A stretch of 64,000 nucleotides of DNA, from assembly GCF_000695095.2 (NCBI RefSeq), contig NZ_CP011454.1:4278001-4342000 (forward strand), given 5' to 3'. A program made the position numbers and the translations under genes. This document shows, piece after piece, positions 3,683 through 40,376 of the stretch. The DNA is from Gemmatimonas phototrophica. Its GTDB lineage: Bacteria > Gemmatimonadota > Gemmatimonadetes > Gemmatimonadales > Gemmatimonadaceae. Position 1 is the stretch's first letter, and every line of letters begins with the position of its first letter. Under the pieces are notes generated by a model. The model was not told the DNA's origin. It saw nothing but the letters and a program-made list of their open reading frames with translations, and searched no databases.

Positions 3683-4156
3683 TTACGCCCCGGGGGGATC
3701 CCACTGAAAGTTCGACGCGTGGAGATGAACGATGAGCCAGGTGTCGCTCACGCGACGGACGACAAATGTGCGCCTCGCGAACGAGATCCGTTCGGTGATC
3801 GGCATGGGCGGCACAGGGCGCAAATGCGCCGTCACAATGGCCATGTCGCCAAACATTTGTGCGTTCACGGCAGCCGGCGTGATGGTGATTGGCCCGGTCC
3901 GGCCTTTGAACAGCGCCGCAAAACTCGCCCGAATCTGCGGCTTCCCGGTGAGCCGATACGGCGCATCGCCACCGGGCATAAAGGCCGTTGCCCCCTCGGC
4001 AAACGTACTCGCGATGAGGTCGAGGTTGGCCGTCTCGTTCGCCTGAATGAACGTACGAACCGTTGCCAGCGCCCGTTCTTCGTCGGCCGTCGTTTGCGCG
4101 TGGACGGCCGGTGCCGTGAGGAAGAAACTGAGCAGCAGGGTGAGAAGTCTTCGCAT
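3683..4156 (-). CDS. Secreted SnoaL/NTF2-like (DUF4440-type) protein
   Basis: A 157-residue protein with a cleavable signal peptide (MRRLLTLLLSFFLTAPAVHA) and an NTF2-like cone fold. Early helix TVRTFIQANETANLD, a middle stretch with GKPQIRASFAALF, and a C-terminal strand pair ending VSDTWLIVHLHAS match the DUF4440/SnoaL pattern of small steroid- or ketide-binding proteins. The start at 4156 puts the methionine directly before the signal peptide; longer in-frame starts at 4177 and 4213 add residues with no function. The ligand and reaction cannot be told. It lies immediately downstream of the RNA ligase-like gene on the same strand. Confidence 0.7.
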   Translation of the reverse strand: MRRLLTLLLSFFLTAPAVHAQTTADEERALATVRTFIQANETANLDLIASTFAEGATAFMPGGDAPYRLTGKPQIRASFAALFKGRTGPITITPAAVNAQMFGDMAIVTAHLRPVPPMPITERISFARRTFVVRRVSDTWLIVHLHASNFQWDPPGA

Positions 4157-4173
4157 CGGAGTACCCGCTCGTG

Positions 4174-4734
4174 TCATTGCATGTTGAGCGGAAACGTTCC
4201 CCGCACCACCCACGGGGCATCGTCCACTTGCTCGATGAGGTGAACTTCCGGGAATGTAACGCTCAGCCCATCTCGCAAGGTGGCGGCACTCTTGAGCGTG
4301 TTCCCAGGTGCCTTGGGATTTCTCGGATGTGCTAGCGTCAGATGCGGCGCGTGTGATCGAGCATGCCGAGTTCCAAGGAGGATTTCCCGGAGTGATTGGA
4401 ATGCCACCGTGCCACTGAAACAGGGCAACATGATGCCATGCTCGCCAAATCGCTCCGGCGGCCCGAACTGAAGTGTGACCGGTCCGGGCCGCACGTGGTC
4501 AACCAGCGCTGCCAACTCCGCAAGACTGAGCCCGGTGAGCTCGTCCTCTCGACACAAGGTCACGTGAGCGGGAATGAGGCGATGCTGTACCGGATCCACA
4601 GTACGCCGCACGGCCTCGATGTCGGCCCCGATATTCGGCGGCACAAAGAGGCTGAGCTGCGAGCGAGTCGGCACGTGGGAGCGGGTGGGGTGGTTGATCG
4701 GTATAACTACAGGAGGCAGGTAAGCGAAAGGCAA
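4174..4734 (-). CDS. 2'-5' RNA ligase / cyclic phosphodiesterase superfamily protein
   Basis: A 186-residue 2H-phosphoesterase. Two HxTx motifs are visible: HVTLCRED near residue 57 and HLTLAHPRN near residue 132, spaced as in LigT/ThpR proteins. These histidines carry out 2'-5' ligation or 2',3'-cyclic phosphate hydrolysis in characterised members; the substrate here is unknown. The 5' end overlaps the 3' end of the upstream lipoprotein gene by 28 bp. A GTG at 4674 just before the first strand is an alternative start and would remove the overlap. Confidence 0.75.
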   Translation of the reverse strand: MPFAYLPPVVIPINHPTRSHVPTRSQLSLFVPPNIGADIEAVRRTVDPVQHRLIPAHVTLCREDELTGLSLAELAALVDHVRPGPVTLQFGPPERFGEHGIMLPCFSGTVAFQSLREILLGTRHARSHAPHLTLAHPRNPKAPGNTLKSAATLRDGLSVTFPEVHLIEQVDDAPWVVRGTFPLNMQ

Positions 4735-5492
4735 CCGGTGGACCGGATCGTGAACGTCCCCGTCAATATTCCTGTCGTCGCATCGCCAACGGTCACCGTG
4801 TACGTCTGGCCAACCATGCCAGCCGGAACAACAAAGAACACAATTGGCGCCTGCCCGTCAAAGGTCACGTTACGTACGCTGCCATCCGGGAGCACGAAAG
4901 TCGCTGGCGTTCCTGCGGGCAAAAGCGCGTCGGTGCCATCGGGCCGTGTGCAACCGGTGGTAAGTCTCACGCCGTTGACGAGCGTGCTAGGGCCCAGGAG
5001 TGCCGCCTGCGAAGTCAGTGACGCGGTCGGTGCCATGAGTACCGGTCGCGTGAGCGCCAGATGCGTCGTTGCCACTCCGGTACCCGCCTCCACGGAGCGC
5101 ACTTCCAGCGTCAGCGGCTTGCCAGGCGTTGCCCCCACCGTCACGCGGTCACTCGCCAGTCCGGCGGCGTTCGTAATCGATGAACCGGCGAACAGCTGAC
5201 TCACGCCATCCGTCACGCGGAAGTTCACCAGTACACCGGCGGCCGCAACCGTGCGGCCACGACGGTCGATAGTGGTCAGGCTCGCGGTAACCGGTGCGTC
5301 GGTCCCGCACACCATACCCGCGCCAGTTTCGTTGACCAGAGCAAGTCGGACACCCCCGTCGATGGCCGAGTAGGGCGCCATGGTGTCGGCGGCGCCTGAA
5401 CAGGCAACCGCGAACGCCGGAAGGGAGCAGGCAAGGGCGATGGTACGAAGCGTTCGGAAGGGCTGGGATGCGATGGTACGAGGTGTCGACAT
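4707..5492 (-). CDS. Ig-like-domain lipoprotein
   Basis: A 261-residue exported protein. It has a signal sequence ending in a lipobox-like FAVACSG, which predicts lipid attachment at the cysteine near residue 31. The body is all-beta. It contains one bacterial Ig-like unit (VTASLTTIDRRGRTV...VNFRVTDG...ITNAAGLASDRVTVG) and a second beta region rich in proline, glycine and threonine. A terminal CLSLTCLL may form a disulfide. The start at 5492 was chosen because the signal peptide follows it; the longer frame to 5582 is not convincing. The function is unknown. Confidence 0.6.
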   Translation of the reverse strand: MSTPRTIASQPFRTLRTIALACSLPAFAVACSGAADTMAPYSAIDGGVRLALVNETGAGMVCGTDAPVTASLTTIDRRGRTVAAAGVLVNFRVTDGVSQLFAGSSITNAAGLASDRVTVGATPGKPLTLEVRSVEAGTGVATTHLALTRPVLMAPTASLTSQAALLGPSTLVNGVRLTTGCTRPDGTDALLPAGTPATFVLPDGSVRNVTFDGQAPIVFFVVPAGMVGQTYTVTVGDATTGILTGTFTIRSTGCLSLTCLL

Positions 5493-28512: not shown

Positions 28513-30567
28513 TCAAATGCAGCCTAAGATGGCGCAGATGCCATCCTCGATGGCCCCATAAATGTCCTGGAGAACCGCCTGCACCTCACCGACGGCCCAG
28601 CCGGCACCCTTGAGCGCCGCGGCTACGGCGGCCTGCCCGATCGAGTAGACGGTCTTGAGCGCGCCGGCCACCTCAGCGATGGTATAGCCGGCACCCTTCA
28701 GCACCGTGGCCGCCGCGTCAGCACCGAGCCCGTAGACGTCCTGCAGCACACCGGCTACCTCGTTGATCGCGAAGCCCGCCAGCTTGAGTGCCGCGATGAC
28801 CGCGGTCTGCCCGATCGAGTAGACGGTCCTCAGCGCGCCAGCCACCTCCGCAGCGGCGTAGCCGGCCCCTTTGAGCACCACGGCGGCCGCGTCGGCGCCG
28901 AGTCCGTAGACGGTCCGCAGCGCACCGGCGACCTCGCTGACGACGAAGCCCGCGCCCTTCAGCACCGTGGCAGCCGCGTCGGCGCCAAGCCCGTACACGG
29001 TCTGCAGCGCACCGGCGACCTCGTTGACGACGAAGCCCGCGCCCTTAAGCACCGTGGCCGCCGCGTCGGCGCCGAGCCCGTAGACGGACTGCAGTGCACC
29101 GGCGATCTCGTTGACGACGAAGCCCGCGCCCTTGAGCACCACGGCCGCCGCGTCGGCGCCGAGCCCGTAGACGGTCTGCAGCACACCGGCCACCTCGTTG
29201 ACGAGGAAGCCCGCGCCCCTGAGTGCCGCGATGACCGCGGTCTGCCCGATCGAGTAGACGGTCCGCAGCGCGCCGGCCACTTCCGCCGCGGCATAACCGG
29301 CCCCCCTGAGCACCGTGGCGGCCGCGGTGGCGCCGAGCCCATAGACCGTCTGCATTACGCCGGCCACTTCGTTCACGAGGTAGCCCGCGCCCTTGAGCAC
29401 CGTGGCCGCCGCTCCTGCGGTCAGATTGTAGACCGTCCGGAGCGCGTCCGTCACTTCACCGATGGCATAACCGGCCCCCTTGAGCACCGCGGCGGCCGCG
29501 TCGGCGCCGAGCCCGTACACGGTCTGCAGCGCGCCCGCCACTTCTCCGGCGACGTAGCCGGCCCCCTTGAGTGCCGCGACGACCGCGGTCTGCCCGATCG
29601 AGTAGACGGTCTGCAGCGCGCCGGCCACCTCCGCAGCGGCGTAGCCGGCCCCCTTGAGCACCGTGGCCGCCGCGTCGGCACCGAGCCCGTAGACGGTGTG
29701 CAGCGCGCTGGTCACCTCGCCGACTGCGTAGCCGGCCCCCTTGAGCGCCGTGGCGCCCGCGTCGGCCGCCAGCCCGTAGGCATCACGCAGTGCGGTACCG
29801 GCCTGCACCACCGGCACACCGAGCGTGTTGAACACGGTCATCGCCTGCACGTCCGACGCGCGCAGGGCGCTCAGACGCAGCGCAGTAGCAACCTGGGTAG
29901 GAGTGAACGGCGCGAGGTCAGAGAACAGGCGCGTCGCCACCATCTGCGCGTTCAGCCCGAACTCGCGCGCCAGCACGTCGGCGATCTGCGTGGCCGTGAA
30001 CCCACGGGCGCGCAGCGCGCGCACGCGGATGGCCGCGTTGTTGCTCACCCAGAATTTGAGCGGAATCGAGCCACTGCCGACCACGTAGGGCATCGACCCG
30101 ATCTCGAGCCCGGAGACCTCCACCGACAGGCGTGTCGTTGCCCCGACCTGCTGGGCCAACGGCTGCCAGACCGCGAGGTACTCGGCGGTGCGCTGATCGA
30201 GGCGCAGGCGCGTGTTGGTCGGGCTCGCGGCGGTGAAGCTGGCGAGCACCGAGCCGCAGCCGCCACCCGTTGCCGGGGTGCACACTTTCACGGTGAGCTG
30301 GGCGAGGAGCGATACGTCCACCGACATGGGGCGCCGGGGGGGCGTGATGACGGGCGCCGAGAAGGTCAGTGCCCCGGTGAGCACGCTCGCGTCGAACGGC
30401 AGCGAGAAGAGCGAGGGTGTTGCGGGGCCCGCGACGACGTCCGCTGACGGGCGCTCGGCAGGCGGCGCGAGGCGCAGCTCGGTAGGCGCGACGGGATTGT
30501 CACCGCAGGCGGCGGCGAGCAGGAGCGAACCGGCGGCCAGGAGGCGGACCAGTGATCGACGTGGCAT
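28513..30567 (-). CDS. Lipoprotein with fourteen 29-residue helical repeats
   Basis: A 684-residue exported lipoprotein (lipobox LLAAACGDN, Cys about 21). Residues 25-170 are beta-rich. About 175-255 is helical. From about 256 to 661 there are 14 tandem units of exactly 29 residues with the pattern VAGALxTVYGLGADAAAxVLKGAGY/F-xxxE, then a partial fifteenth ending in a CAILGC cysteine pair. Most units carry YGLGADAAA; four carry YSIGQTAV instead. Each unit probably forms a helix-turn-helix, giving a solenoid. Function is unknown. The longest run of near-identical units is the middle (29000-29240). Possible roles are adhesion or scaffold. Confidence 0.8.
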   Translation of the reverse strand: MPRRSLVRLLAAGSLLLAAACGDNPVAPTELRLAPPAERPSADVVAGPATPSLFSLPFDASVLTGALTFSAPVITPPRRPMSVDVSLLAQLTVKVCTPATGGGCGSVLASFTAASPTNTRLRLDQRTAEYLAVWQPLAQQVGATTRLSVEVSGLEIGSMPYVVGSGSIPLKFWVSNNAAIRVRALRARGFTATQIADVLAREFGLNAQMVATRLFSDLAPFTPTQVATALRLSALRASDVQAMTVFNTLGVPVVQAGTALRDAYGLAADAGATALKGAGYAVGEVTSALHTVYGLGADAAATVLKGAGYAAAEVAGALQTVYSIGQTAVVAALKGAGYVAGEVAGALQTVYGLGADAAAAVLKGAGYAIGEVTDALRTVYNLTAGAAATVLKGAGYLVNEVAGVMQTVYGLGATAAATVLRGAGYAAAEVAGALRTVYSIGQTAVIAALRGAGFLVNEVAGVLQTVYGLGADAAAVVLKGAGFVVNEIAGALQSVYGLGADAAATVLKGAGFVVNEVAGALQTVYGLGADAAATVLKGAGFVVSEVAGALRTVYGLGADAAAVVLKGAGYAAAEVAGALRTVYSIGQTAVIAALKLAGFAINEVAGVLQDVYGLGADAAATVLKGAGYTIAEVAGALKTVYSIGQAAVAAALKGAGWAVGEVQAVLQDIYGAIEDGICAILGCI
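28516..29802 (-). repeat. 87-bp tandem coding repeats
   Basis: Fourteen in-frame 87-bp units plus a partial fifteenth encode the 29-residue helical repeats of the overlying lipoprotein. Neighbouring units in the middle differ at only a few bases, which suggests recent expansion. Length is always a multiple of three, so copy-number change keeps the reading frame. Confidence 0.85.
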
Positions 30568-31429: not shown

Positions 31430-31569
31430 GCCTCACGTGTGCTTCTGCTGTGAACGCTCCAAGCAAGAAGCAGTTGGGGGGCGGCCGCTAGGCCGTCCCA
31501 CGCTCCATTGTGCGGCCGCCCCATAGCCGCTACCGCACCTGCGCTCGTCGGCAGCAAGCATCGTTATGC
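31430..31569 (-). other. attC recombination site (attC5)
   Basis: A 140-bp imperfect inverted repeat. On the minus strand it begins GCATAAC and ends GTGAGGC, close to the RYYYAAC and GTTRRRY consensus boxes. Inside are the arm sequences shared with the other sites (CGGCAGCAA on the plus strand near 31550, TTCTGCTG near 31443) and a GC-rich inner hairpin, GGGGCGGCCGC against GCGGCCGCCCC. The stop codon of the cassette gene lies in its first core box, as is common for cassettes. Confidence 0.7.
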
Positions 31570-31815
31570 TGCGGCGTCGCGACGCGCGATCTCGGCCTGC
31601 ACAGCGCGCGGCGCCGTCGATGTCGCGGCGATGGCGGCGATGCCCATTGCCATCGTGCTGATGAAGACCGGCGTGTTCGTCCGCCAGTAGCCGAGGACAA
31701 TCCACGCGAGGACGATGGCGGCAATGATGCCAGCGACAGTGCGCTGGATCGCCTGCGTGGACTTGAGCTTCGCGCGTAGCGCGTGGGTGGATAGCGAGGT
31801 CAGATCGTTGGCCAC
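31564..31815 (-). CDS. Cassette gene: small two-helix membrane protein
   Basis: An 83-residue protein. A soluble helix (about 1-24) is followed by membrane segments at about 25-43 (VAGIIAAIVLAWIVLGYW) and 48-65 and a charged tail (VQAEIARRD). The GTG at 31815 has a GGAG ribosome site seven bases upstream; the longer open frame to 32154 runs across another decayed gene. The stop codon is inside the first core box of attC5. The layout resembles the small membrane proteins often carried by chromosomal integron cassettes. No function is known. Confidence 0.6.
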   Translation of the reverse strand: MANDLTSLSTHALRAKLKSTQAIQRTVAGIIAAIVLAWIVLGYWRTNTPVFISTMAMGIAAIAATSTAPRAVQAEIARRDAAA

Positions 31816-31861
31816 GGGGCTGCTCCAGTTGGACGGGGTGTACGGAGAACAGAACCCGCCG

Positions 31862-32165
31862 TCACGGCGAGCGCAACCACCGGTGACGCCCTCGGGAGGC
31901 CAGCGCGCCGAGCCACGTGGCAAGGACGAACGTGACGAAGGCAACGAGTGCCCCAACGACAACGGCGAGGGGCCCACTGAAGGGAGAATCTTGCAGGCGG
32001 CCCGCTCTGTGCGGCGGCAAGTCCGATGGCAAAGTAGTCGGCGAGCGAGATTGCCGAGAGCAATCAGAACTCGAAGCCGAGGCTCCGGGCGGCGGCGGCC
32101 CCACCCGTTGAGATGAGGAGCACCGCCGTGAGCCCCCAGGAGAGAATGCGACACTCAGGGGTCAT
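31862..32165 (-). pseudogene. Decayed small membrane protein gene in cassette 5
   Basis: Three membrane segments can be followed through two frames. An ATG at 32165 opens a signal-like helix (LSWGLTAVLLISTGG), broken by an in-frame TGA at 32064-32066. The same frame then reads LLSAISLADYFAIGLAAAQ. A further frame change leads to GPLAVVVGALVAFVTFVLAT, ending at 31862. Together they suggest an ancestral protein of about 100 residues with one stop and one frameshift. It shares a cassette with the gene just downstream. Alternatively, the pieces could be chance open frames. Confidence 0.4.
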
Positions 32166-32201
32166 GCAATCCTGCTCCTCGCGACGAGTGAGTCTGCGTC
32201 A

Positions 32202-32325
32202 GCACAACGCCTTACGTTCTGCTGCAGCGCATCAAGCAGAATGCGGTCGGACGGGCGACGTGCGCCAGCACGGCGCCGGCCAGCCGCGCTCCGCAGTGCG
32301 CTACAACAGCAATGCAACGTGAGGC
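32202..32325 (-). other. attC recombination site (attC4)
   Basis: A 124-bp site. On the minus strand it begins GCCTCAC and ends GTTGTGC. Its plus-strand left half (TTCTGCTGCAGCGCATCAA and what follows) is almost identical to attC1 for about 60 bp. The right half has diverged. It lies between cassette genes at 31564-32165 and 32356-32784. Confidence 0.65.
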
Positions 32326-32355
32326 GACGACCGGTCGCGACGCGTAGCTGGCATG

Positions 32356-32784
32356 CTAGCACGCCGCATCGTCATACACGAGCACCCGTTTGGAATCGAA
32401 GTACCATCTACGATTTCTGAGACTGAACTGGTACTCTTGATCCTCGGCCCACGCACAAATCGGCGGGTCTGGAGGGTCTAGTTTGCCCCACCGAAGCACA
32501 CGAACTACTGCCTTTCCTTGGGCGCGGCTGATGCCCGTAACACGAACCCCTGCTGAAGCACGGGAAGTCGCTGAGTCGGCAGGTGGGCTAAGCAATGCTA
32601 TGGCAACTGCCGAGTCACGAGCTGGCACATTTGCGACAACCTGAATCGCGTCGGCGAGGGCTCGGCGAAATTCTCGGTCGGCAATTGGTGTGGCAGAGGA
32701 GTAACACCCCAACAACAAAGACGTGAGCGCGAACATCCATGTACGCCGTAGCGTCCCATCGATCGAGTGCGAGTTGAATGTCAT
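32356..32784 (-). CDS. Cassette gene: small lipoprotein of unknown function
   Basis: A 142-residue exported lipoprotein. The signal sequence ends in LTSLLLGCYSS, giving a lipidated Cys near residue 27. The mature part has a helical stretch (EFRRALADAIQVVANVP), then beta strands (GVRVTGISRAQGKAVVRVLRW) and aromatic, tryptophan-rich C-terminal strands. No family was recognised. The ATG at 32784 has GGTGAC just upstream and lies about 37 bases inside the cassette boundary set by attC3; a start at 32736 is possible. Same direction as the integrase. Confidence 0.6.
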   Translation of the reverse strand: MTFNSHSIDGTLRRTWMFALTSLLLGCYSSATPIADREFRRALADAIQVVANVPARDSAVAIALLSPPADSATSRASAGVRVTGISRAQGKAVVRVLRWGKLDPPDPPICAWAEDQEYQFSLRNRRWYFDSKRVLVYDDAAC

Positions 32785-32820
32785 GTCACCATTTGGCTTC
32801 GCCCGAAGGTGGGTGCGATT

Positions 32821-32911
32821 GCCTAACGCCCGGTTCTGCAGCGGGCGCCGAGATCAAATGCGCGCGCAGCGCGCTTCAGAAAGCGCCCGAGTTCAGCACG
32901 CGTCGTGAGGC
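32821..32911 (-). other. attC recombination site (attC3)
   Basis: The shortest site, 91 bp. On the minus strand it begins GCCTCAC and ends with a perfect GTTAGGC core (plus-strand GCCTAAC at 32821). Arms GCGGGCGC and GCGCCCG pair. TTCTGCAGC on the plus strand matches the arm of the other sites. It separates the 2.3-kb cassette 3 from the lipoprotein cassette. Confidence 0.75.
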
Positions 32912-33132
32912 TCGCGCCACGCGAACGGTTGCCGCCGTTTCGGTAGGTGCCGTGTACGCGACATACCTGAATTAAAGGTCGTATCTCGTCAATGATGCGC
33001 GCGCCGCGTGGGGAGCCCGTGACCTGCAGTGTGGCACCAACGATGGCAACTGCTGTCAGGGCTTCATGAAGGGTGAACGAACTGAAGACAAAGAGAAGGA
33101 CGAGACGCGTGTCGAACACCACGGCGACCACA
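32912..33132 (-). other. Cassette 3 tail with a possible small ORF
   Basis: Between the cassette 3 gene and attC3 an open minus-strand frame continues to 32823, stopping on the TAG inside the attC3 core. Its middle is hydrophobic (VLLFVFSSFTLHEALTAVAIVGATLQV), as in the last helices of EamA-type transporters, but no good start or full domain is visible. It may be a remnant of an older cassette gene. Confidence 0.25.
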
Positions 33133-34626
33133 CTACCAGCGCGACCAGAGCAGGAGTGTGCCGCACGGCGAGATCCCAAAACTGAACTGTGCCGGTAAAG
33201 TCGCGGGCGTATAGTACTCGGCGGCGGCAATCAGTGAGGGGTCGATGGAGTCCAAATCCAGCGGTCCCGCGTCGGGCATCCCGTCGAAGATCACGCGTAT
33301 CGGGCACTGCCGCTGAGAAACGCTGATGCTGCCACGACTCGAGACCAGCGTCCGACGGCCGGTGCCGGCGGTGCGCATCCCGGGGATTCGACTGGTGAGG
33401 AAATTCAGCATGCTTCCACCTTCGGCCCTTGCAAAGTCTTCCGGGGCCAAGAACCTGCCGAATCCCATCTTCCGCCTCTCGTCGAAGTCCGCGAGGTTGC
33501 GCCCGAGCATCGTGCGCACCATCGCGTTCGCACGCACCCGCACCGTATCCATGACCTGCGCGCGCACCAGCGCCACCACCTGCGCCACGGTGTCGCCGGG
33601 CACGAGGTCGACCGGCTGCTGCCGCGGCGCGTACCCGAGCGCCTGCACGGCGAGCGTCCACGTGCCGGTGGGTGTGGCCGCGAGCAGGAAGCGCCCCGCA
33701 CTGTCGGTGCGTGTCTCGAGCCCGGTCGCACTCAACCCGACGATGGCGTTGGCGAGCGGACGTCCGTCGACGGTCTGCACGGTGCCGCGCACCCCACCCG
33801 CGCCACGCAGCACGATGTCCACCAGGCCGCTGTCTTCCGGAGGCTGCGGGCCACTCGGCGTTGTCACCACCGTGTCCGCACGCCCCAGCACCAGGTCGCG
33901 CGGCACAATGCCGGTGGCCGACGACGTGAACGTGACGACGCCGCTCGCCCCTTCGGCGCTTACCGCGCGCAGCCGTACGGTGGTCTCGGTGGGCACGCCG
34001 CACAACACGTAGCGGCCGTTGTCGCCCACCGGCACGTCGGTGGTCACGATGGTACGTTCAATGCGCCCCGTCTCGACCCGCAGGTCCGGCCACTGCGCCG
34101 TCACCTGCCCGGCGCTGAGCGGCAGGGCGCTGCCCGTCGCTGCTGCGCGCGGCAACGCGCTTGTCCGCACGGCCTGCCGCACGGTGCCGAACAGATAGCC
34201 GGTGCCCGGGGTGGCCGCGCTCCCGCACACGCGCGCCACAAGTGTGCCGACCGACGGCATCGCCGCGCGCACGGTCACGCCCCTCCCGGCGCGCACGGTG
34301 AACGGCACCGCGACGCTGCCCACACCGAGCGTATCGAGGCGTGCGTGGCGTGCCGTGAGCACCCACGGCCCGGCCGGCAGGCTGTCCACCCGTGCGCGTC
34401 CGCGCGCATCGAGGGTAGCGTCGTGCACGCGCGTCGTATCGAACACCGACACGAGGCGCACGCTCGCACCCGCGAGCGGCAGGCGTGTGATGCCATCTAC
34501 GCCCGTGATGTCCACGCGCCCGGGACGCCCCGGTGACGCGGACGCTTGCGCGTGCGCACGCGCGGCGCCGAGCATGCTCACGCACGTGACCATGGCGGCG
34601 ACGAGGAACGTCGTATGATGCGTCAT
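33133..34626 (-). CDS. Cassette gene: CarboxypepD_reg / plug-like protein (paralogue C)
   Basis: A 497-residue exported protein with the same plan as the tandem pair at 16080-19062. The signal peptide (TTFLVAAMVTCVSMLGAARAHAQ) is followed by carboxypeptidase-regulatory-like modules (VDITGVDGITRLPLAGASV, VRGTVQTVDGRPLANAIVGL) and a short plug-like end (RTAGTGRRTLVSSRGSI, IRVIFDGMPDAG). The C-terminus is shorter than in the paralogues and lacks the CIPPIYLDG-type insert cysteine. The start at 34626 precedes the signal peptide. It lies between attC2 and attC3 in the integron and reads the same way as intI. It is unusually long for a cassette gene. Confidence 0.7.
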   Translation of the reverse strand: MTHHTTFLVAAMVTCVSMLGAARAHAQASASPGRPGRVDITGVDGITRLPLAGASVRLVSVFDTTRVHDATLDARGRARVDSLPAGPWVLTARHARLDTLGVGSVAVPFTVRAGRGVTVRAAMPSVGTLVARVCGSAATPGTGYLFGTVRQAVRTSALPRAAATGSALPLSAGQVTAQWPDLRVETGRIERTIVTTDVPVGDNGRYVLCGVPTETTVRLRAVSAEGASGVVTFTSSATGIVPRDLVLGRADTVVTTPSGPQPPEDSGLVDIVLRGAGGVRGTVQTVDGRPLANAIVGLSATGLETRTDSAGRFLLAATPTGTWTLAVQALGYAPRQQPVDLVPGDTVAQVVALVRAQVMDTVRVRANAMVRTMLGRNLADFDERRKMGFGRFLAPEDFARAEGGSMLNFLTSRIPGMRTAGTGRRTLVSSRGSISVSQRQCPIRVIFDGMPDAGPLDLDSIDPSLIAAAEYYTPATLPAQFSFGISPCGTLLLWSRW

Positions 34627-35153
34627 CACTTGCGATTCTCCATTTATACCGATGCGTTCGAGCCACTTGCGACCTGTCCAGAACACGAGCGCCCCGCATT
34701 CCGAGGTGACGCGCTGGAACCGCAGCGGCACCACGGTCTTGCATTGTCGTTCTCCGCGCCGAGCACGTCGTCGAGATCGCCCTCAGGAGAGGAATTTCAA
34801 ACGGGCTGCGTCGCTTTCCTTTGGAGCATACGGCGCGATCACCGGCCTCGCCAGCGCCTCGTGCCGGGCGGCGGCCTGTCATCGATCGCGCGCTGACAAC
34901 CTTCGCGGCGCGGGCGCGTCGGTCGCGGTGGGTGGCCAAACCCATCGGAGGCGCCGGTGGAACGGCCGCCCACGCCAAAGGTCTCCTCGTGGTGGCGGGG
35001 TGTCGGGGCCGTCCTCAGGTAACTGGCGCAGCGCCGTCGGACGGGCGTGGGGCGCGCGCTGCGCCGCATGCCACTCCGATTGCGCGGCCTGCGCCCGAAA
35101 AAGATTGGATCAATGGCAGAACCAATCGCATCCGCCCATCGCTTTGTGAGTTG
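34627..35153. other. Leader part of cassette 3, nothing recognised
   Basis: About 530 bp between attC2 and the start of paralogue C. Several open frames cross it, but their translations are arginine-rich and without domain character. No attC arm motif (TTCTGCTG or CGGCAGCAA) was found here, so a hidden site between two fused cassettes could not be shown. Confidence 0.35.
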
Positions 35154-35289
35154 GCATAACGTTTGCTTCTGCTGTGGACGCTCATATAAAAAGGGTTTGG
35201 CGGGGCCTCCGCAACCAAGCCCAGGTCATCACGGAGGCCCCGCCAAACCCATCCTTACCCGCGGCCATCGGCAGCAAGCGTCGTTAGCC
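35154..35289 (-). other. attC recombination site (attC2)
   Basis: A 136-bp site. On the minus strand it begins GGCTAAC and ends GTTATGC. Plus-strand arms are TTCTGCTG near 35167 and CGGCAGCAAG near 35269. The centre is a 19-bp perfect inverted repeat (35193-35211 with 35232-35250) around a 20-base loop, much longer pairing than in the other sites. Its first core is the exact complement of the attC1 end core, so cassette 2 has matched ends. Confidence 0.8.
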
Positions 35290-35434
35290 TGCGGTGCTCC
35301 GGTGTCCGAGGTCGGCGTCCTCTATGAAAAAGAGGGATGAAATGCGCCTGCGTCCTGCGCGTCACGCACGTTCAACTGTGTCAGCTATTCGTACAGCATA
35401 TGCACCGATAACAACGGCCCGACGCGCTAGGGTG

Positions 35435-36472
35435 TCAGCGCGATGCGGGCCGTAGAGTCGAGAGAAACGCGCGCATTAGCCGTTCCGTATCGACCGGCTC
35501 TCTGAGGAACTGGTAGTGGTGCGAAGGAGATGCGACGACCCGCGCCTGTGGCACCTCTCGAGCGAAGCGTTCACGCTCGCGCAGGACCCACGGCCGTAGC
35601 ACCGAGTCGACGACCGCCGTCGTTCGTGCAATCCCCAAGGAGTCGCCCGCGAGGAACGGGAACATCACAGTGATCGGATCCCAATCCGAATAGAGCGCGA
35701 GCGCCGGGGCGCGCACGCCTCGATAGTCAAGGGCTGGTGTGTTTGTGAAGATTGCCTGCGCGACCCGGTTGGGCGTTCGCGGCCCCACGAGCGATCCCGC
35801 GGAGTCGAAGAGAAATGTGGCGATCACCTCGCCAATCGGATACTCGACACCCCGTAGGCGGCGCAGATAGTCCTGCAGTCCCGTCGGGCTGGCCAGCTCT
35901 ACGGCCAAGGGGCTCGGCATGATACTGCCGAGCGCCGAAAAGAGGCGCTCTTCGGCGTTGAAGGCAGCCGAGTGATCCAGCGCTGCGTCGAGATAGATCA
36001 CGCCGGCCGTACGCGTTGGATATGTCGTGGCGAAGCCCGTGATCTCATCACCGCCGAGCGAGTGCCCGGCGAGCACGACGTGATGCAGCCGCAGCGTGTC
36101 GAGGACCGCCCGGAGTTGCTCGACGCGCGCTGCAATCGCGTAGCCCTCTCGCTCCGGTTGGTCAGAGCCGCCGAATCCGACGCGCGAAACGCCGATGACG
36201 CGGTACTGATCGGTGAACCGCGGCGCAAAGCCGTCAAAGACGTGGGCTGAGTTGCCCATCCCCGGATAGAAGACGAGCGTCGGGCCGGAACCGCCCCAGT
36301 CGAGGTACTCGATTCGGACGCCGTCGACCGTCACGGTGCCCACGCGGTGTGGCGACGTATCTGTCGGCCGATGGGGCGCGACGTGTGGCGCCTGGGCTTC
36401 GGCGCTGCCTCCGGGAGCGAGGAGGACGGCGACGACGGCTAGAGTCAGAATGCGCGGGAACGAAACGTACAT
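35435..36472 (-). CDS. Cassette gene: secreted alpha/beta-hydrolase
   Basis: A 345-residue exported hydrolase. A signal peptide (to about residue 26, VLLAPGGSAEA) precedes an alpha/beta-hydrolase fold with GSGPTLVFYPGMGNSAHVF, the nucleophile elbow LAGHSLGGDE (about residue 137) and a catalytic-histidine candidate in SPSHHYQFL near the end. Close in type to epoxide-hydrolase/esterase-like enzymes; the substrate is unknown. The ATG at 36472 begins the signal peptide; the open frame to 36532 is less likely. It sits in cassette 2, between attC1 and attC2. Confidence 0.78.
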   Translation of the reverse strand: MYVSFPRILTLAVVAVLLAPGGSAEAQAPHVAPHRPTDTSPHRVGTVTVDGVRIEYLDWGGSGPTLVFYPGMGNSAHVFDGFAPRFTDQYRVIGVSRVGFGGSDQPEREGYAIAARVEQLRAVLDTLRLHHVVLAGHSLGGDEITGFATTYPTRTAGVIYLDAALDHSAAFNAEERLFSALGSIMPSPLAVELASPTGLQDYLRRLRGVEYPIGEVIATFLFDSAGSLVGPRTPNRVAQAIFTNTPALDYRGVRAPALALYSDWDPITVMFPFLAGDSLGIARTTAVVDSVLRPWVLRERERFAREVPQARVVASPSHHYQFLREPVDTERLMRAFLSTLRPASR

Positions 36473-36563
36473 GTGAAGCCGAAGATGTTGGGAACGGAAG
36501 AAGGGAGGAAGGCGCGGCCAGTGTGTGTGCAAGGCGAGTTCGGCGCAACAATGCGTGTTAGCA

Positions 36564-36688
36564 GGCTAACGCTTTGCGTTCTGCTGCAGCGCATCAAACA
36601 AAATGCGGCCGGACGGACGTCGTGCGCCAGCACGGCGACCGCCTGCCGCATACCGCATCGCGCTGTCGGCAGCAACGTTTCGTTAGAC
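36564..36688 (-). other. attC recombination site (attC1)
   Basis: A 125-bp site with the best outer boxes. On the minus strand it begins GTCTAAC, a perfect RYYYAAC, and ends GTTAGCC. Plus-strand arms GCGTTCTGCTGC and GTCGGCAGCAAC pair to form the usual stem with a bulged base. Its first core is the exact complement of the GTTAGAC at the attI junction, so cassette 1 has matched ends. A small palindrome, GTTAGC-AG-GCTAAC, covers the left edge (36557-36570). Confidence 0.85.
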
Positions 36689-36743
36689 CACGCTGCGCGG
36701 ACGGTGCGGCTTGCGTGTAATAGGCCTGCACTGATTGAAGTAG

Positions 36744-37169
36744 TCACGTGGCCATTGGCCTCCACCGCATTCGCAAGGCGCCAGCGCTGACGGCGACGGC
36801 TACGAGCACCGGGACGAAAGGAAACACCCAGAAAAAGGCGCGATCCGCCAGCGTTGGATGGACCGCACCGAGTACGCTGTAGAGCGGGCCCATCAAGAGC
36901 ACCAGTCCAACGAGGGTTAGCGCGAACGCGAGCGATGAGAAAGCGGCGAGCCCACGCGGCGGCATATGTGCAATGCGGCGCCAAATGACGGGGAGTGCCA
37001 GCAGGTACAGAAGGACTGAAGGGGCTAGCAGCACGAACGCATCGGCCTCGACCGGGTAGCGCTCCCCACCTCCTGGCACTGGCGCGCGTTGACTCCAAAC
37101 GCCGATACCAGTGATGAGTAGCGCAGCAGCAGCGGGAAAGACGAGAAGCGCGAGGAATCGCCTTAACAT
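36744..37169 (-). CDS. Cassette 1 gene: small integral membrane protein
   Basis: A 141-residue protein with four predicted membrane segments: about 5-25, 46-63, 76-96 and 108-130. Loops are short and the C-terminus is basic (LRMRWRPM). No family was recognised. The ATG at 37169 is 26 bases from the attI-cassette junction, so the gene is placed as the first cassette gene and would be read by any promoter inside or upstream of intI/attI. Same direction as the integrase. Confidence 0.6.
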   Translation of the reverse strand: MLRRFLALLVFPAAAALLITGIGVWSQRAPVPGGGERYPVEADAFVLLAPSVLLYLLALPVIWRRIAHMPPRGLAAFSSLAFALTLVGLVLLMGPLYSVLGAVHPTLADRAFFWVFPFVPVLVAVAVSAGALRMRWRPMAT

Positions 37170-37189
37170 TCAAAGACTTTCGTAAAGTG

Positions 37190-37370
37190 GTCTAACGAGT
37201 ATTAGACTGCAGGCGATCACTGCAGCCAGCGCGTTATACAGCGGATTTCTGCAGTCTAATCCACAGCGCTTCGCGTCGATGCCATGGTGGATCTCATTGC
37301 CGCGGCATCGGTTACGCCGCAGAGACGTAATTGGGCACTCCGAATTAGACTGCAGATATTGCAGTCTAAC
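37190..37370 (-). other. attI-like integrase-binding region at the 3' end of intI
   Basis: It starts two bases beyond the integrase stop codon. On the minus strand GTTAGACTGCA (37370-37360) is followed by its inverted copy at 37355-37344. A third copy is at 37260-37249, and a fourth, inverted, at 37212-37201. The end is a perfect core GTTAGAC (37196-37190) at the junction with cassette 1. The final pair, GTCTAAT-ACTC-GTTAGAC, looks like the L and R boxes of an attI simple site. The upstream copies are in the place of accessory DR sites. Confidence 0.7.
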
Positions 37371-37372
37371 AT

Positions 37373-38440
37373 TCAGTTGCGCCGAGGGTTCCGCAAGCGG
37401 GAGGCATCGCTCCCCATAACGGTGCGCGACGGTGGTTCCGGCCGCTCTGTTGGACCGCCGGCGCGTGACCCTGACAGTCCGGGAAGATCCAAGGGACTCT
37501 TCACGCCGAGCCCCCCGCGGTTGAGGACGTGGGTATAGAGCATCGTGGTGGACACGTCCCGATGCCCCAACAGTTCCTGCACCGTGCGGATATCGTAGCC
37601 GGCTTCGAGCAGATGGGTCGCAAAAGAATGCCGGAACGTATGGCACCCGACGCGCTGCGCCGTACCCGTGCGCCGCGCCGCCTCAGCGACCGCCCGTTGC
37701 AACACGGTAGGGTGCACATGGTGCGTGCGCCGCTGCTTGGCCTCGGCATCCCAGTATTCGCGCGATGCGGGGAAGACCCACCACCAGCCAGCATTTCGGA
37801 CAGCGCCCATGGCTTTCGTCCCCGTGGCCAGCGGCAACGCGACATACCCGCCCCCGCGGGCGGCCCGTTGCTGCATGTCCAGCCGAACGGCACCGAGATG
37901 TGCGCGCAGGGGTGCAACGAGGCTGGCCGGCAACATGGTCACCCGATCACGCGCCCCTTTACCCCGTCGCACCCGAATCTCGCCGCGATCAAGATCCACG
38001 TCTTTCACCCGCAACGTGCAGCACTCCATGAGGCGCATCCCCGAGCCGTAGAGCAACGAGGCCATGAGCCACGGAACGCCGTCCATGACCCCGAGCACCG
38101 CGGCCACCGCCGCTCGAGACAACACGTTGGGCAGCACATGAGGCCGTTTGGCGGGGGCGATGCCCGTCACCGTGGGCAACGGCTGCTCCAACACGTCCCG
38201 ATACAGGAACTGGAGCGCCGCCAGCGCCTGGTTCTGTGTTGACACCGCCACCCCTCGCGCGGTAGCCAGATACGACAGAAAATTCCGCACCGCAGATGGC
38301 GGGAGCTCGGCCGGATGCCGACGCCCGTGAAAGTTCACGTACGCGACAATCCACCGCACATACACCTGCACCGTGCGCGGACTGTACCGCCGCACGGCCG
38401 CGCGGTCGCGCACCAACAACAAGAGGCGTGAAGACGTCAT
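37373..38440 (-). CDS. intI: Integron integrase (tyrosine recombinase, IntI type)
   Basis: A 355-residue tyrosine recombinase that joins attI and attC sites. The N-terminal SAM-like DNA-binding domain covers about 1-95. Catalytic residues are visible: Arg in YGSGMRL (about 132), His-x-x-Arg in HTFRHSFATH (about 266-269), His in LGHRD (about 292) and the nucleophile Tyr in LYTHVL (about 301). Residues about 203-245 hold the extra segment found in IntI but not in XerC/D, with WWWVFPA and RRTHHVHPTVLQRAV. Its cassettes lie beyond its 3' end and run the same way, the reverse of most integrons. An in-frame TGA just upstream fixes the start at or after 38440. No strong ribosome site is present. Confidence 0.9.
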   Translation of the reverse strand: MTSSRLLLLVRDRAAVRRYSPRTVQVYVRWIVAYVNFHGRRHPAELPPSAVRNFLSYLATARGVAVSTQNQALAALQFLYRDVLEQPLPTVTGIAPAKRPHVLPNVLSRAAVAAVLGVMDGVPWLMASLLYGSGMRLMECCTLRVKDVDLDRGEIRVRRGKGARDRVTMLPASLVAPLRAHLGAVRLDMQQRAARGGGYVALPLATGTKAMGAVRNAGWWWVFPASREYWDAEAKQRRTHHVHPTVLQRAVAEAARRTGTAQRVGCHTFRHSFATHLLEAGYDIRTVQELLGHRDVSTTMLYTHVLNRGGLGVKSPLDLPGLSGSRAGGPTERPEPPSRTVMGSDASRLRNPRRN

Positions 38441-38528: not shown

Positions 38529-40376
38529 CTACTTCATGCGGTCCCGACGGACCTGCACGCGCAGCCCCTTGATCTTGGTGTTCTTGAGCGCGGTGATCAC
38601 TTCGTCCGCCATCGCCTCCGGCACATCCACCGTGCTGAAGTTGTCGGCAATCTGAATGGCGCCAATGTGCTCCGAGTCCAAGCCGGCCTCGTTGGCAATG
38701 GCCCCCACCAAGTCGCCCGGACGCATCTTGAGTTTGCGACCGGCGCCAATCCACAACGTGGCCGGCGTCCAGGCGGTCTCGCGGCGCGGCTTCTTGCCCT
38801 TCGCACCGCCAGCCTCGGCACGCGGCGGACGACGATCGCCCCCGCCACGCTCGTCACGCGCAAACCGCTCGCCGCCGCGGCTATCGCCACCACGCGACTC
38901 CCCGCCGCGCGACTCGCCACCACGGCTCTCCCCACGATCAAACCGCTCGCGCGGCTCACGCGGCGTCACCGCCGGAATCTCGTCCTCACCACCGTCACGC
39001 GCCGCGACGAGCTTCACCGCCGCCGCCGCCACGTCCATCACGTCAAACTCATCCGCCAACGCTTCCACCATGCCGCGGAAGCTCTCCAAGCCTCCCTCAA
39101 CAATGGCTTCGCGCAACGTCATCTTCACCAGCTCCTGACGGTGCGCCCGCAGGTCGGCCACGGTGGGCACCTGCGCGATGTCGATCTTCTGGCTGGTCTG
39201 CCGCTCAATGTTGCGCAGCAACCGGTGCTCACGCGGCTCGGCCAACGTAATGGCCACACCCTCGCGACCGGCACGGCCGGTACGGCCAATGCGGTGCACA
39301 TACGTTTCGGCATCCGCGGGCACATCGAAGTTCACCACGTGGCTCACGTGCTTCACATCGAGCCCGCGCGCTGCCACGTCGGTGGCAATGAGCAGATCCA
39401 CCTTCTTGGCGCGGAACTTCTGCATCACGCGGTCACGCTGGTCCTGCGACAGCCCGCCGTGCAACGACTCCGCTCGCAACCCGCGCGCCGAGAGCGTCTC
39501 GGTGAGCTCGTCCACTTCCGTGCGCGTGCGGCAGAAGACAATCGCGCTGGTGGGCTGCTCGATGTCGAGCACCCGCGCCAACGCCGGCATCTTGTGCGCG
39601 CGGCTCACCACGTACGCCACCTGGCGTACCCGGGCCACGGCGCCCTCGGCCAACACTTCCCGCTCCACCGTGACATGCTCGGCGTCGCGCAGATACTTGC
39701 GCGCAATCCCGGCAATACGCGGCGGCAACGTGGCCGAAAACAGACAGGTCTGCTTGCTGGCCGGCGTGGCGTCGAGAATGGCCTCGAGTTCGTCGGCGAA
39801 GCCCATGTCGAGCATTTCGTCGGCTTCGTCGAGCACCACCGCCTGCAACGTGCCCAGCTTGAGCGTGTTGCGCTTGATGTGGTCGAGCGCGCGACCAGGG
39901 GTCGCGATCACGACATCCACACCCCGCTTGAGGGCGCGGATCTGCAGTTCCATGCTCGCGCCGCCGTAAACGGCCAGCGCATGCAAGCCCAGCGGCTTGC
40001 CATAACGGTGCACCGCTTCGGCCACCTGCATGGCCAGTTCGCGGGTGGGGACCAGAATGAGGACCGACGGGGCCCCGTTGGCAGCCTTGTGGCCGGCGCC
40101 AATGCGGGTAAGTAACGGGAGCGCAAAGGCGGCCGTCTTGCCGGTGCCTGTGGCCGCCTGCGCGAGCACATCGCGGCCGACCAGCAGGGGCGGAATTGCT
40201 GCCCGCTGCACGGGCGTAGGTTCTTCGTAGCCAAGCGCCGAAAGCGCCTCGGCAATGCGCGAGTCAACACCCAGTGCGGCGAAGCCATTGTTGCCAGCTT
40301 CTGTACTATCCTGCAAATCGTGCTCGGTGCCCGCGCGGATCAGCGCGGCAGACGAGCGCGCGTCCGTTTTGGTCAT
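38529..40376 (-). CDS. deaD: DEAD-box RNA helicase, DeaD/CsdA type
   Basis: A 615-residue ATP-dependent RNA helicase for ribosome assembly and RNA unwinding in the cold. Motifs in order: Q motif (TPVQRAAIPPLL), Walker A ATGTGKT (about residue 75), TPGRALDH, VLDEADEML (about 181), SATLPP, and helicase C motifs with ATDVAARGLD and HRIGRTGRAG. A low-complexity RGGES repeat linker (about 478-505) precedes a DbpA/CsdA RNA-binding domain (about 540-612). The ATG at 40376 has an AGGAG ribosome site. The gene is divergent from the SET-domain gene. Confidence 0.93.
   Translation of the reverse strand: MTKTDARSSAALIRAGTEHDLQDSTEAGNNGFAALGVDSRIAEALSALGYEEPTPVQRAAIPPLLVGRDVLAQAATGTGKTAAFALPLLTRIGAGHKAANGAPSVLILVPTRELAMQVAEAVHRYGKPLGLHALAVYGGASMELQIRALKRGVDVVIATPGRALDHIKRNTLKLGTLQAVVLDEADEMLDMGFADELEAILDATPASKQTCLFSATLPPRIAGIARKYLRDAEHVTVEREVLAEGAVARVRQVAYVVSRAHKMPALARVLDIEQPTSAIVFCRTRTEVDELTETLSARGLRAESLHGGLSQDQRDRVMQKFRAKKVDLLIATDVAARGLDVKHVSHVVNFDVPADAETYVHRIGRTGRAGREGVAITLAEPREHRLLRNIERQTSQKIDIAQVPTVADLRAHRQELVKMTLREAIVEGGLESFRGMVEALADEFDVMDVAAAAVKLVAARDGGEDEIPAVTPREPRERFDRGESRGGESRGGESRGGDSRGGERFARDERGGGDRRPPRAEAGGAKGKKPRRETAWTPATLWIGAGRKLKMRPGDLVGAIANEAGLDSEHIGAIQIADNFSTVDVPEAMADEVITALKNTKIKGLRVQVRRDRMK

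Follow-up and report, generated by a model that had tools for sequence, protein, structure and literature searches.

We have analysed a stretch of 64,000 nt from the genome of Gemmatimonas phototrophica (assembly GCF_000695095.2, contig NZ_CP011454.1, positions 4,278,001-4,342,000). This whole stretch is called the window, and its coordinates are used below unless a kb value or a genome coordinate is stated. The window contains an integron, made up of an IntI integrase with the IntI-specific insertion, an attI site beside intI and an attC array with its cassette genes. Both intI and the five candidate cassette open reading frames (ORFs) are on the minus strand, i.e. the integrase is transcribed in the same direction as its cassettes, as a preliminary description of the locus had already proposed. 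The features identified at the locus were the following:

37373..38440 (-), intI, integron integrase of 355 amino acids (TIGR02249, 379.9 bits, cut-off 265)
37190..37398 (-), attI block of ~208 bp sharing 26 nt with the 3' end of intI, the unit that recurs at chromosomal sites without intI
37344..37370 (-), palindrome M1, GTTAGACTGCA-ATATC-TGCAGTCTAAT (11-5-11), two outward-facing IntI-type boxes; position conserved, with compensatory arm changes
37233..37260 (-), palindrome M2, ATTAGACTGCA-GAAATC-CGCTGTATAAC (11-6-11); position conserved, with covariation
37190..37224 (-), attI core, L box GTCTAAT and R box GTTAGAC (L/R boxes at 37190-37211), a motif found 3' of intI genus-wide
36744..37169 (-), cassette 1 gene, ORF for a hydrophobic protein of 141 amino acids, no Pfam or NCBIfam match
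36564..36688 (-), attC 1 (51.2 bits, E 1.8e-11, with the covariance model R1 described below)
35435..36532 (-), cassette 2 gene, alpha/beta hydrolase (PF00561, 59.4 bits), start codon uncertain
35154..35289 (-), attC 2 (R1 35.6 bits, E 3e-7)
33133..34734 (-), cassette 3 gene, carboxypeptidase-regulatory-like domain protein (PF13620, 75.2 bits), start codon uncertain
32821..32911 (-), attC 3 (R1 46.6 bits, E 3e-10)
32356..32784 (-), cassette 4 gene, ORF of 142 amino acids, no family match
32202..32325 (-), attC 4, degraded, with R' GTTGTGC (R1 18.6 bits, E 0.015)
31564..32154 (-), cassette 5 gene, ORF whose stop codon lies inside R'' of attC 5
31430..31569 (-), attC 5, end of the array, R' degraded to GTGAGGC (R1 27.4 bits, E 6e-5)
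38529..40376 (-), DEAD-box RNA helicase, flanking gene outside the integron, syntenic with intI in other Gemmatimonas

The product of intI was the sole TIGR02249 match above the cut-off in this single-contig genome, and with the XerC and XerD models it reached 156 and 136 bits, far under their own cut-offs. The closest solved structure was that of Vibrio cholerae IntI4 (2A3V), and the end-to-end alignment spans the catalytic region and the IntI-specific insertion, in agreement with the preliminary description, which had called the gene an IntI-type recombinase carrying this insertion. In a tree rooted with Xer, for which the sequences were picked by similarity to the window and included no Treponema IntI, it clustered with other Gemmatimonas integrases inside the IntI clade, separated from the two Xer-like recombinases of the same genome at 100/99 support.

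To search for attC sites, a simple box-and-arm scanner was first run over 59 other Gemmatimonadota intI loci to avoid circularity and, with the window locus included, gave 95 matches in 370 kb located 3' of intI versus 10 in 547 kb located 5'; the extra base expected in the 5' arm was present in 85 of the 95. A covariance model, R1, was then built from 33 aligned sites of 15 other genomes, with the window held out. R1 recovered four sites of the window at E < 1e-4 and a weak one, all of them minus-strand sites within 31430-36688, so that the at least five attC sites originally proposed are present, two of them (attC 4 and 5) degraded. In the case of attC 4, 97 nt are 85% identical to attC 1. 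The only other R1 entries in the window were the reverse image of one attC and a weak match in attI. R1 was also applied to a class 1 integron as a control and detected its catB3 attC, whose side and strand relative to intI1 were opposite, as expected. A strict hand-made attC scanner had found two window sites only and was superseded by the covariance model, and a scan of the window with Rfam gave no match to attC or any other entry.

The attI-like region noted past the 3' end of intI turned out to be an attI of 208 bp with a conserved L/R core. Both the position and the sequence of the core boxes are conserved in relatives, and the crossover, set by the homology boundary of orthologous attI sites (see below), falls in the window between G 37196 and T 37195. 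As had been pointed out, only two bases separate the stop codon of intI (37373-37375) from the first attI palindrome. Nevertheless, the distance from stop to core ranges from 9 to 263 nt in relatives, and therefore this closeness is not conserved. What is kept in most relatives is the spacing of the palindromes, irrespective of where intI stops, with M1 at 146-151 and M2 at 35-37 bases from the core start; in loci L095 and L037 the intI reading frame extends through part of attI. The arms of M1 and M2 showed compensatory changes, with 35 cells altered on both sides versus 16.6 after shuffling and a maximum of 12 in slid controls. They follow the consensus GTTRRRYTGC, and the same box is found in the attI core and in attC R', suggesting that M1 and M2 are additional IntI-binding sites. 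They may also have a hairpin role in RNA. An attC-like fold of attI, with the M2 left arm pairing with the core L box, was also considered and set aside because its covariation support was weaker than that of M1 and M2.

The layout is no local oddity, since in 39 Gemmatimonadota loci all of the attC sites scoring at least 30 bits (181/181) were 3' of intI and in its direction. At the same loci the longest ORF per cassette, in the clear cases, ran 96 times with intI versus 10 against. The sampled Pseudomonadota control showed the canonical layout in 10 of 10 loci. Using R1 together with the scanner, the reverse layout was found in Chlorobiaceae, Coriobacteriia, some Acidobacteriota, Myxococcota, Rokubacteria and others, and the canonical one in Nitrococcus, Cyanobacteria and Chloroflexota. 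Layout was strongly clustered on the IntI tree (5 changes versus 15 in shuffles), with at least two reverse groups. The Gemmatimonadota reverse integrases were the deepest in the Xer-rooted tree; we do not claim from this that the layout is ancestral, given the distant outgroup and the sample chosen by similarity. The preliminary description had presented the reverse arrangement as known from Treponema denticola and a few other lineages, which is correct (PMC3607928, PMC6557892) but incomplete, as it is the normal layout in Gemmatimonadota and the rule in several other groups. Integrons had already been reported in Gemmatimonadota (PMC8618304), and a limited search of the open-access literature found no published statement of their layout. 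With IntI above the TIGR02249 cut-off in 102 of 298 sampled Gemmatimonadota genomes, a reverse layout across the phylum corrects the view of it as rare. One reverse integron with more than 12 attC sites (L050, G079:C3; Gemmatirosa kalamazoonensis NZ_CP007129) was located on a replicon of 1.1 Mb listed among plasmids.

Applied to the whole genome, R1 revealed four further attC clusters at 4675.8-4679.0, 4659.3-4664.0 and 4518.1-4519.1 kb (minus strand) and at 396.0-400.3 kb (plus strand), near which no convincing trace of intI was found. A pattern of the attI core matched four times in the genome, the window copy included, versus none for the reversed pattern. We also trained an attI model, R2, on 14 intI-adjacent attI sites only, and this gave five attI sites, i.e. 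the four pattern matches and one more at 4519.7 kb heading the remaining cluster. The four sites without intI, all of them outside the window and each heading a cassette array, are:

G000:C1:395532-395609 (+), attI without intI
4519670-4519748 (-), attI without intI, detected by R2 and not by the pattern
4664925-4665002 (-), attI without intI
4679582-4679659 (-), attI without intI

Hence this genome has one intI and five attI sites (A beside intI, B to E without it), each heading its own array of two to five cassettes. Three of the integrase-less copies scored 63-80 bits with R2 and the fourth 37.9. Counted from the end of the core, the homology among attI copies extends from -210 to -2/-3, and A, B and C have 86-88% identity over this discrete block, which runs as far as the crossover. 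Arrays B to E meet the definition of clusters of attC sites without a neighbouring integrase (CALINs), with an attI also present; no earlier description of integrase-less attI was found in the same limited literature search, on which its novelty rests. With dnaA at position 175, and assuming a terminus near the middle of the record, all five arrays are co-directional with replication (four minus-strand arrays near the record end and a plus-strand one at 0.4 Mb), an orientation that limits excision in other chromosomal integrons (PMC11023631).

A similar situation was found in other genomes of the genus. Of 30 Gemmatimonas genomes, 23 contained attI sites detected by R2, frequently two to eight apiece, and several members of a second genus (g21) contained three to five per genome. 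Among 60 attI examined in Gemmatimonas, 14 had intI upstream and 46 did not, and attC sites followed 31 of the 37 integrase-less attI having at least 1500 nt of downstream sequence. All attC sites at the examined loci were downstream of attI and in the same direction, none being upstream or opposed. Judging by the upstream genes, seven integrase-less attI sites were orthologous between two to four genomes, and every one of the 27 orthologous pairs shared nothing in the 600 nt past the crossover. In the pairs inspected the similarity continued unbroken through attI and ended at the G|TT crossover; the clearest example is that of L247 and L252, with 98% identity as far as GTTA and unrelated sequence after it. 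At B, C and E the site without intI is common to several species, along with its flank and a well-kept attI, and all the arrays differ from the crossover onward. Since the species share a site that lacks intI, any local loss of an integrase predates their split and the exchange of cassettes postdates it, so that the exchange occurred most simply in trans. Several of the compared genomes are drafts in which intI could be on unassembled contigs; the genome of the window is a single contig.

Putting these observations together, we consider with a probability of roughly 0.78 that the window contains a reverse sedentary chromosomal integron whose single IntI also serves the four other attI copies (395.5, 4519.7, 4664.9 and 4679.6 kb), each with its own array. 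The integrase, the attI and attC sites with their orientation, the additional attI copies, the synteny of the integrase-less sites and the full turnover of cassettes there are direct observations. From them we infer that one IntI would act in trans on all the attI ports, binding the core together with M1 and M2 at each port and inserting or excising cassettes at G|TT, and that every port would drive the expression of its cassettes from inside the 208-bp block. A further step, which we hold evenly balanced between acceptance and doubt, is that of a distributed integron, one integrase with several dispersed attI ports, in which the 208-bp block, with three groups of IntI boxes and its own promoter, forms a portable module, copied to new chromosomal sites and retained there through speciation without a local integrase gene.

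Several points weigh against the single integrase serving all ports. D and E have diverged, with identities to A, the attI beside intI, of 54% and 40%, and thus IntI may serve the copies unequally. A local intI may once have been present at the integrase-less sites and then lost in common. In one 99% complete draft (G054) attI is found at C10:23835, C75:85430 and C31:314026 with no detectable intI; either intI was not assembled or the ports outlived the integrase, and in such genomes the ports may be dead. An ortholog of site B (L273, G660:C2:1-6500; attI at 4902-4979) has an upstream gene with 90-96% identity and an attI block with only 59-62%, indicating that the block has been replaced and that processes other than IntI also act there. 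Finally, attC 4 and 5 are degraded and the intI-adjacent array is small, and M1 and M2 are assigned to IntI binding from the similarity of their boxes.

A possible, if doubtful, alternative emphasis, compatible with trans-acting IntI, is that the reverse layout mainly serves to place the cassettes on the intI transcript, so that their expression would follow that of the integrase. The helicase, intI and the cassettes are co-directional on the same strand and only two bases separate the intI stop from the attI repeats. Scans found neither a sigma-70-like promoter nor a convincing terminator between intI and the cassettes. Co-transcription, which the preliminary description had proposed together with a change in cassette expression, is possible. 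However, besides the variable distance from stop to core, most attI of the genus have no intI, and the shared block must work without it. In the genome of the window this block, or a diverged copy of it, heads four arrays without intI that cannot depend on the intI transcript. Read-through from host genes was not supported as the usual origin of cassette expression in such arrays, because the gene upstream of site C points the opposite way. The M2 right arm contains an ATAA conserved across the 60 attI sites and could be the -10 element of a promoter for the cassettes. There is also no evident link with the SOS response, since no LexA box was found upstream of intI. The direct repeat TTCGN7TTCGG, which resembles the GTTCN7GTTC type and is a candidate SOS box of Gemmatimonas, is found twice at lexA (G000:C1:2235903 and 2235940), once at recA (2369367) and twice more, with AT-rich spacers, just before a second RecA-like (ImuA-like) gene (3369434 and 3369657). 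The window has no exact copy, and its 13 copies with one mismatch are at chance level (16.4 expected), which puts intI outside the evident SOS box control of this organism.

It is improbable in our opinion that the integrase-less attI are unused relics of complete integrons that lost intI, with arrays that are mere fossils. CALINs elsewhere are often so read (PMC12444791), and both the degraded attC sites and the genome with three attI and no detectable intI would fit. Sites B, C and E speak otherwise, with attI well kept among species and arrays that differ from the crossover, which places the loss of intI before the latest exchanges. Apparent intI remnants beside five integrase-less attI were rejected, as the matched residues were beyond position 313 of a read-through query ORF (L095) and reflect attI homology; the counts given above were redone without them.

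Recombination between the repeated 208-bp blocks, rather than the integrase, could in principle also change the arrays. The attI sites are more alike within a genome (0.61 identity) than between genomes (0.485), the block was swapped at L273, and sites of genome G660 are 99% identical over attI and the beginning of the first cassette. Still, the homology of the inspected pairs stops at the crossover base and not within attI, and the attC sites are structured as expected, including the extra base of the 5' arm, making homologous recombination a very improbable cause. Lastly, a plain reverse integron accompanied by unrelated CALINs, which are common in integron-bearing genomes, with attI-like sequences arising by chance or from attC, is hardly credible in view of the four pattern matches versus none in the reversed control, the block shared by A, B and C, and the scores given to the other copies by R2, a model trained on other attI.

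The location of the window integron appears to be fixed and its cassettes are not, indicating a sedentary chromosomal integron. The helicase is 84-96% identical and in the same neighbouring position in L099, L100, L076 and L069. The order of the genes upstream of intI (helicase, SET-domain, cytochrome and GNAT genes) is kept in L099 and L100 and partly in L076 and L069, and the cassette genes of the window have no counterpart at the matching place in any of the four. Homologues of the cassette 3 gene were found 3' of intI in L069 (65%) and L038 (59%), in the latter flanked by two attC sites, and thus this gene travels as a cassette. The true start of the cassette 5 gene is probably near 31815. 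Just beyond the integron, at 28513-30567 on the minus strand, there is an ORF for a lipoprotein-like product of 684 amino acids with at least seven tandem repeats of 87 nt (29 amino acids). In another genome (L262, G660:C1:742100-748700) a gene at ~4071-4859, 35% identical to IntI, is located inside an array about 200-1000 nt past an integrase-less attI, and could be a second, distant integron integrase present as the content of a cassette.

Integrons are usually viewed as one platform per integrase, consisting of intI, one attI and one array. One integrase seemingly feeding up to five fixed attI ports would permit several first-position (expressed) cassettes at once, and adaptive genes could be loaded at multiple places of the chromosome. 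The presence of attI at CALINs offers a sequence test for live ports. In addition, cassette expression in reverse integrons becomes testable, because the shared attI block must hold what is needed.

Compared with known systems, the window integron resembles the reverse integrons of Treponema denticola, Chlorobium phaeobacteroides and Blastopirellula marina in that intI is transcribed toward attI and along the cassettes (PMC3607928, PMC6557892, PMC7691350), and it shares with Treponema the absence of a LexA box upstream of intI (PMC7691350). It differs in the attI, which in T. denticola has L and R boxes with two direct repeats and here two palindromes at fixed spacing. Furthermore, no integrase-less attI has been described in those three genera, and here the layout extends over a whole phylum. 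With the sedentary chromosomal integrons of Vibrio and Xanthomonas it has in common the fixed chromosomal locus, the turnover of cassettes and arrays that follow replication, with the attC bottom strands on the leading-strand template (PMC11023631); here this holds for all five arrays under the assumption made above about the terminus. Unlike them, which have the canonical layout, it consists of small arrays distributed over five attI sites. Arrays B to E are like CALINs in having attC without intI, and CALINs can be mobilised in trans (PMC12444791), but CALINs are defined by attC alone and each of these arrays starts with an attI. Finally, the class 1 integron (IntI1, attI1) belongs to the same IntI family and has the same core of L and R boxes, a G|TT crossover and attC sites matched by R1, yet it is mobile, has the opposite layout, and the accessory sites of attI1 are direct repeats (PMC10500605).

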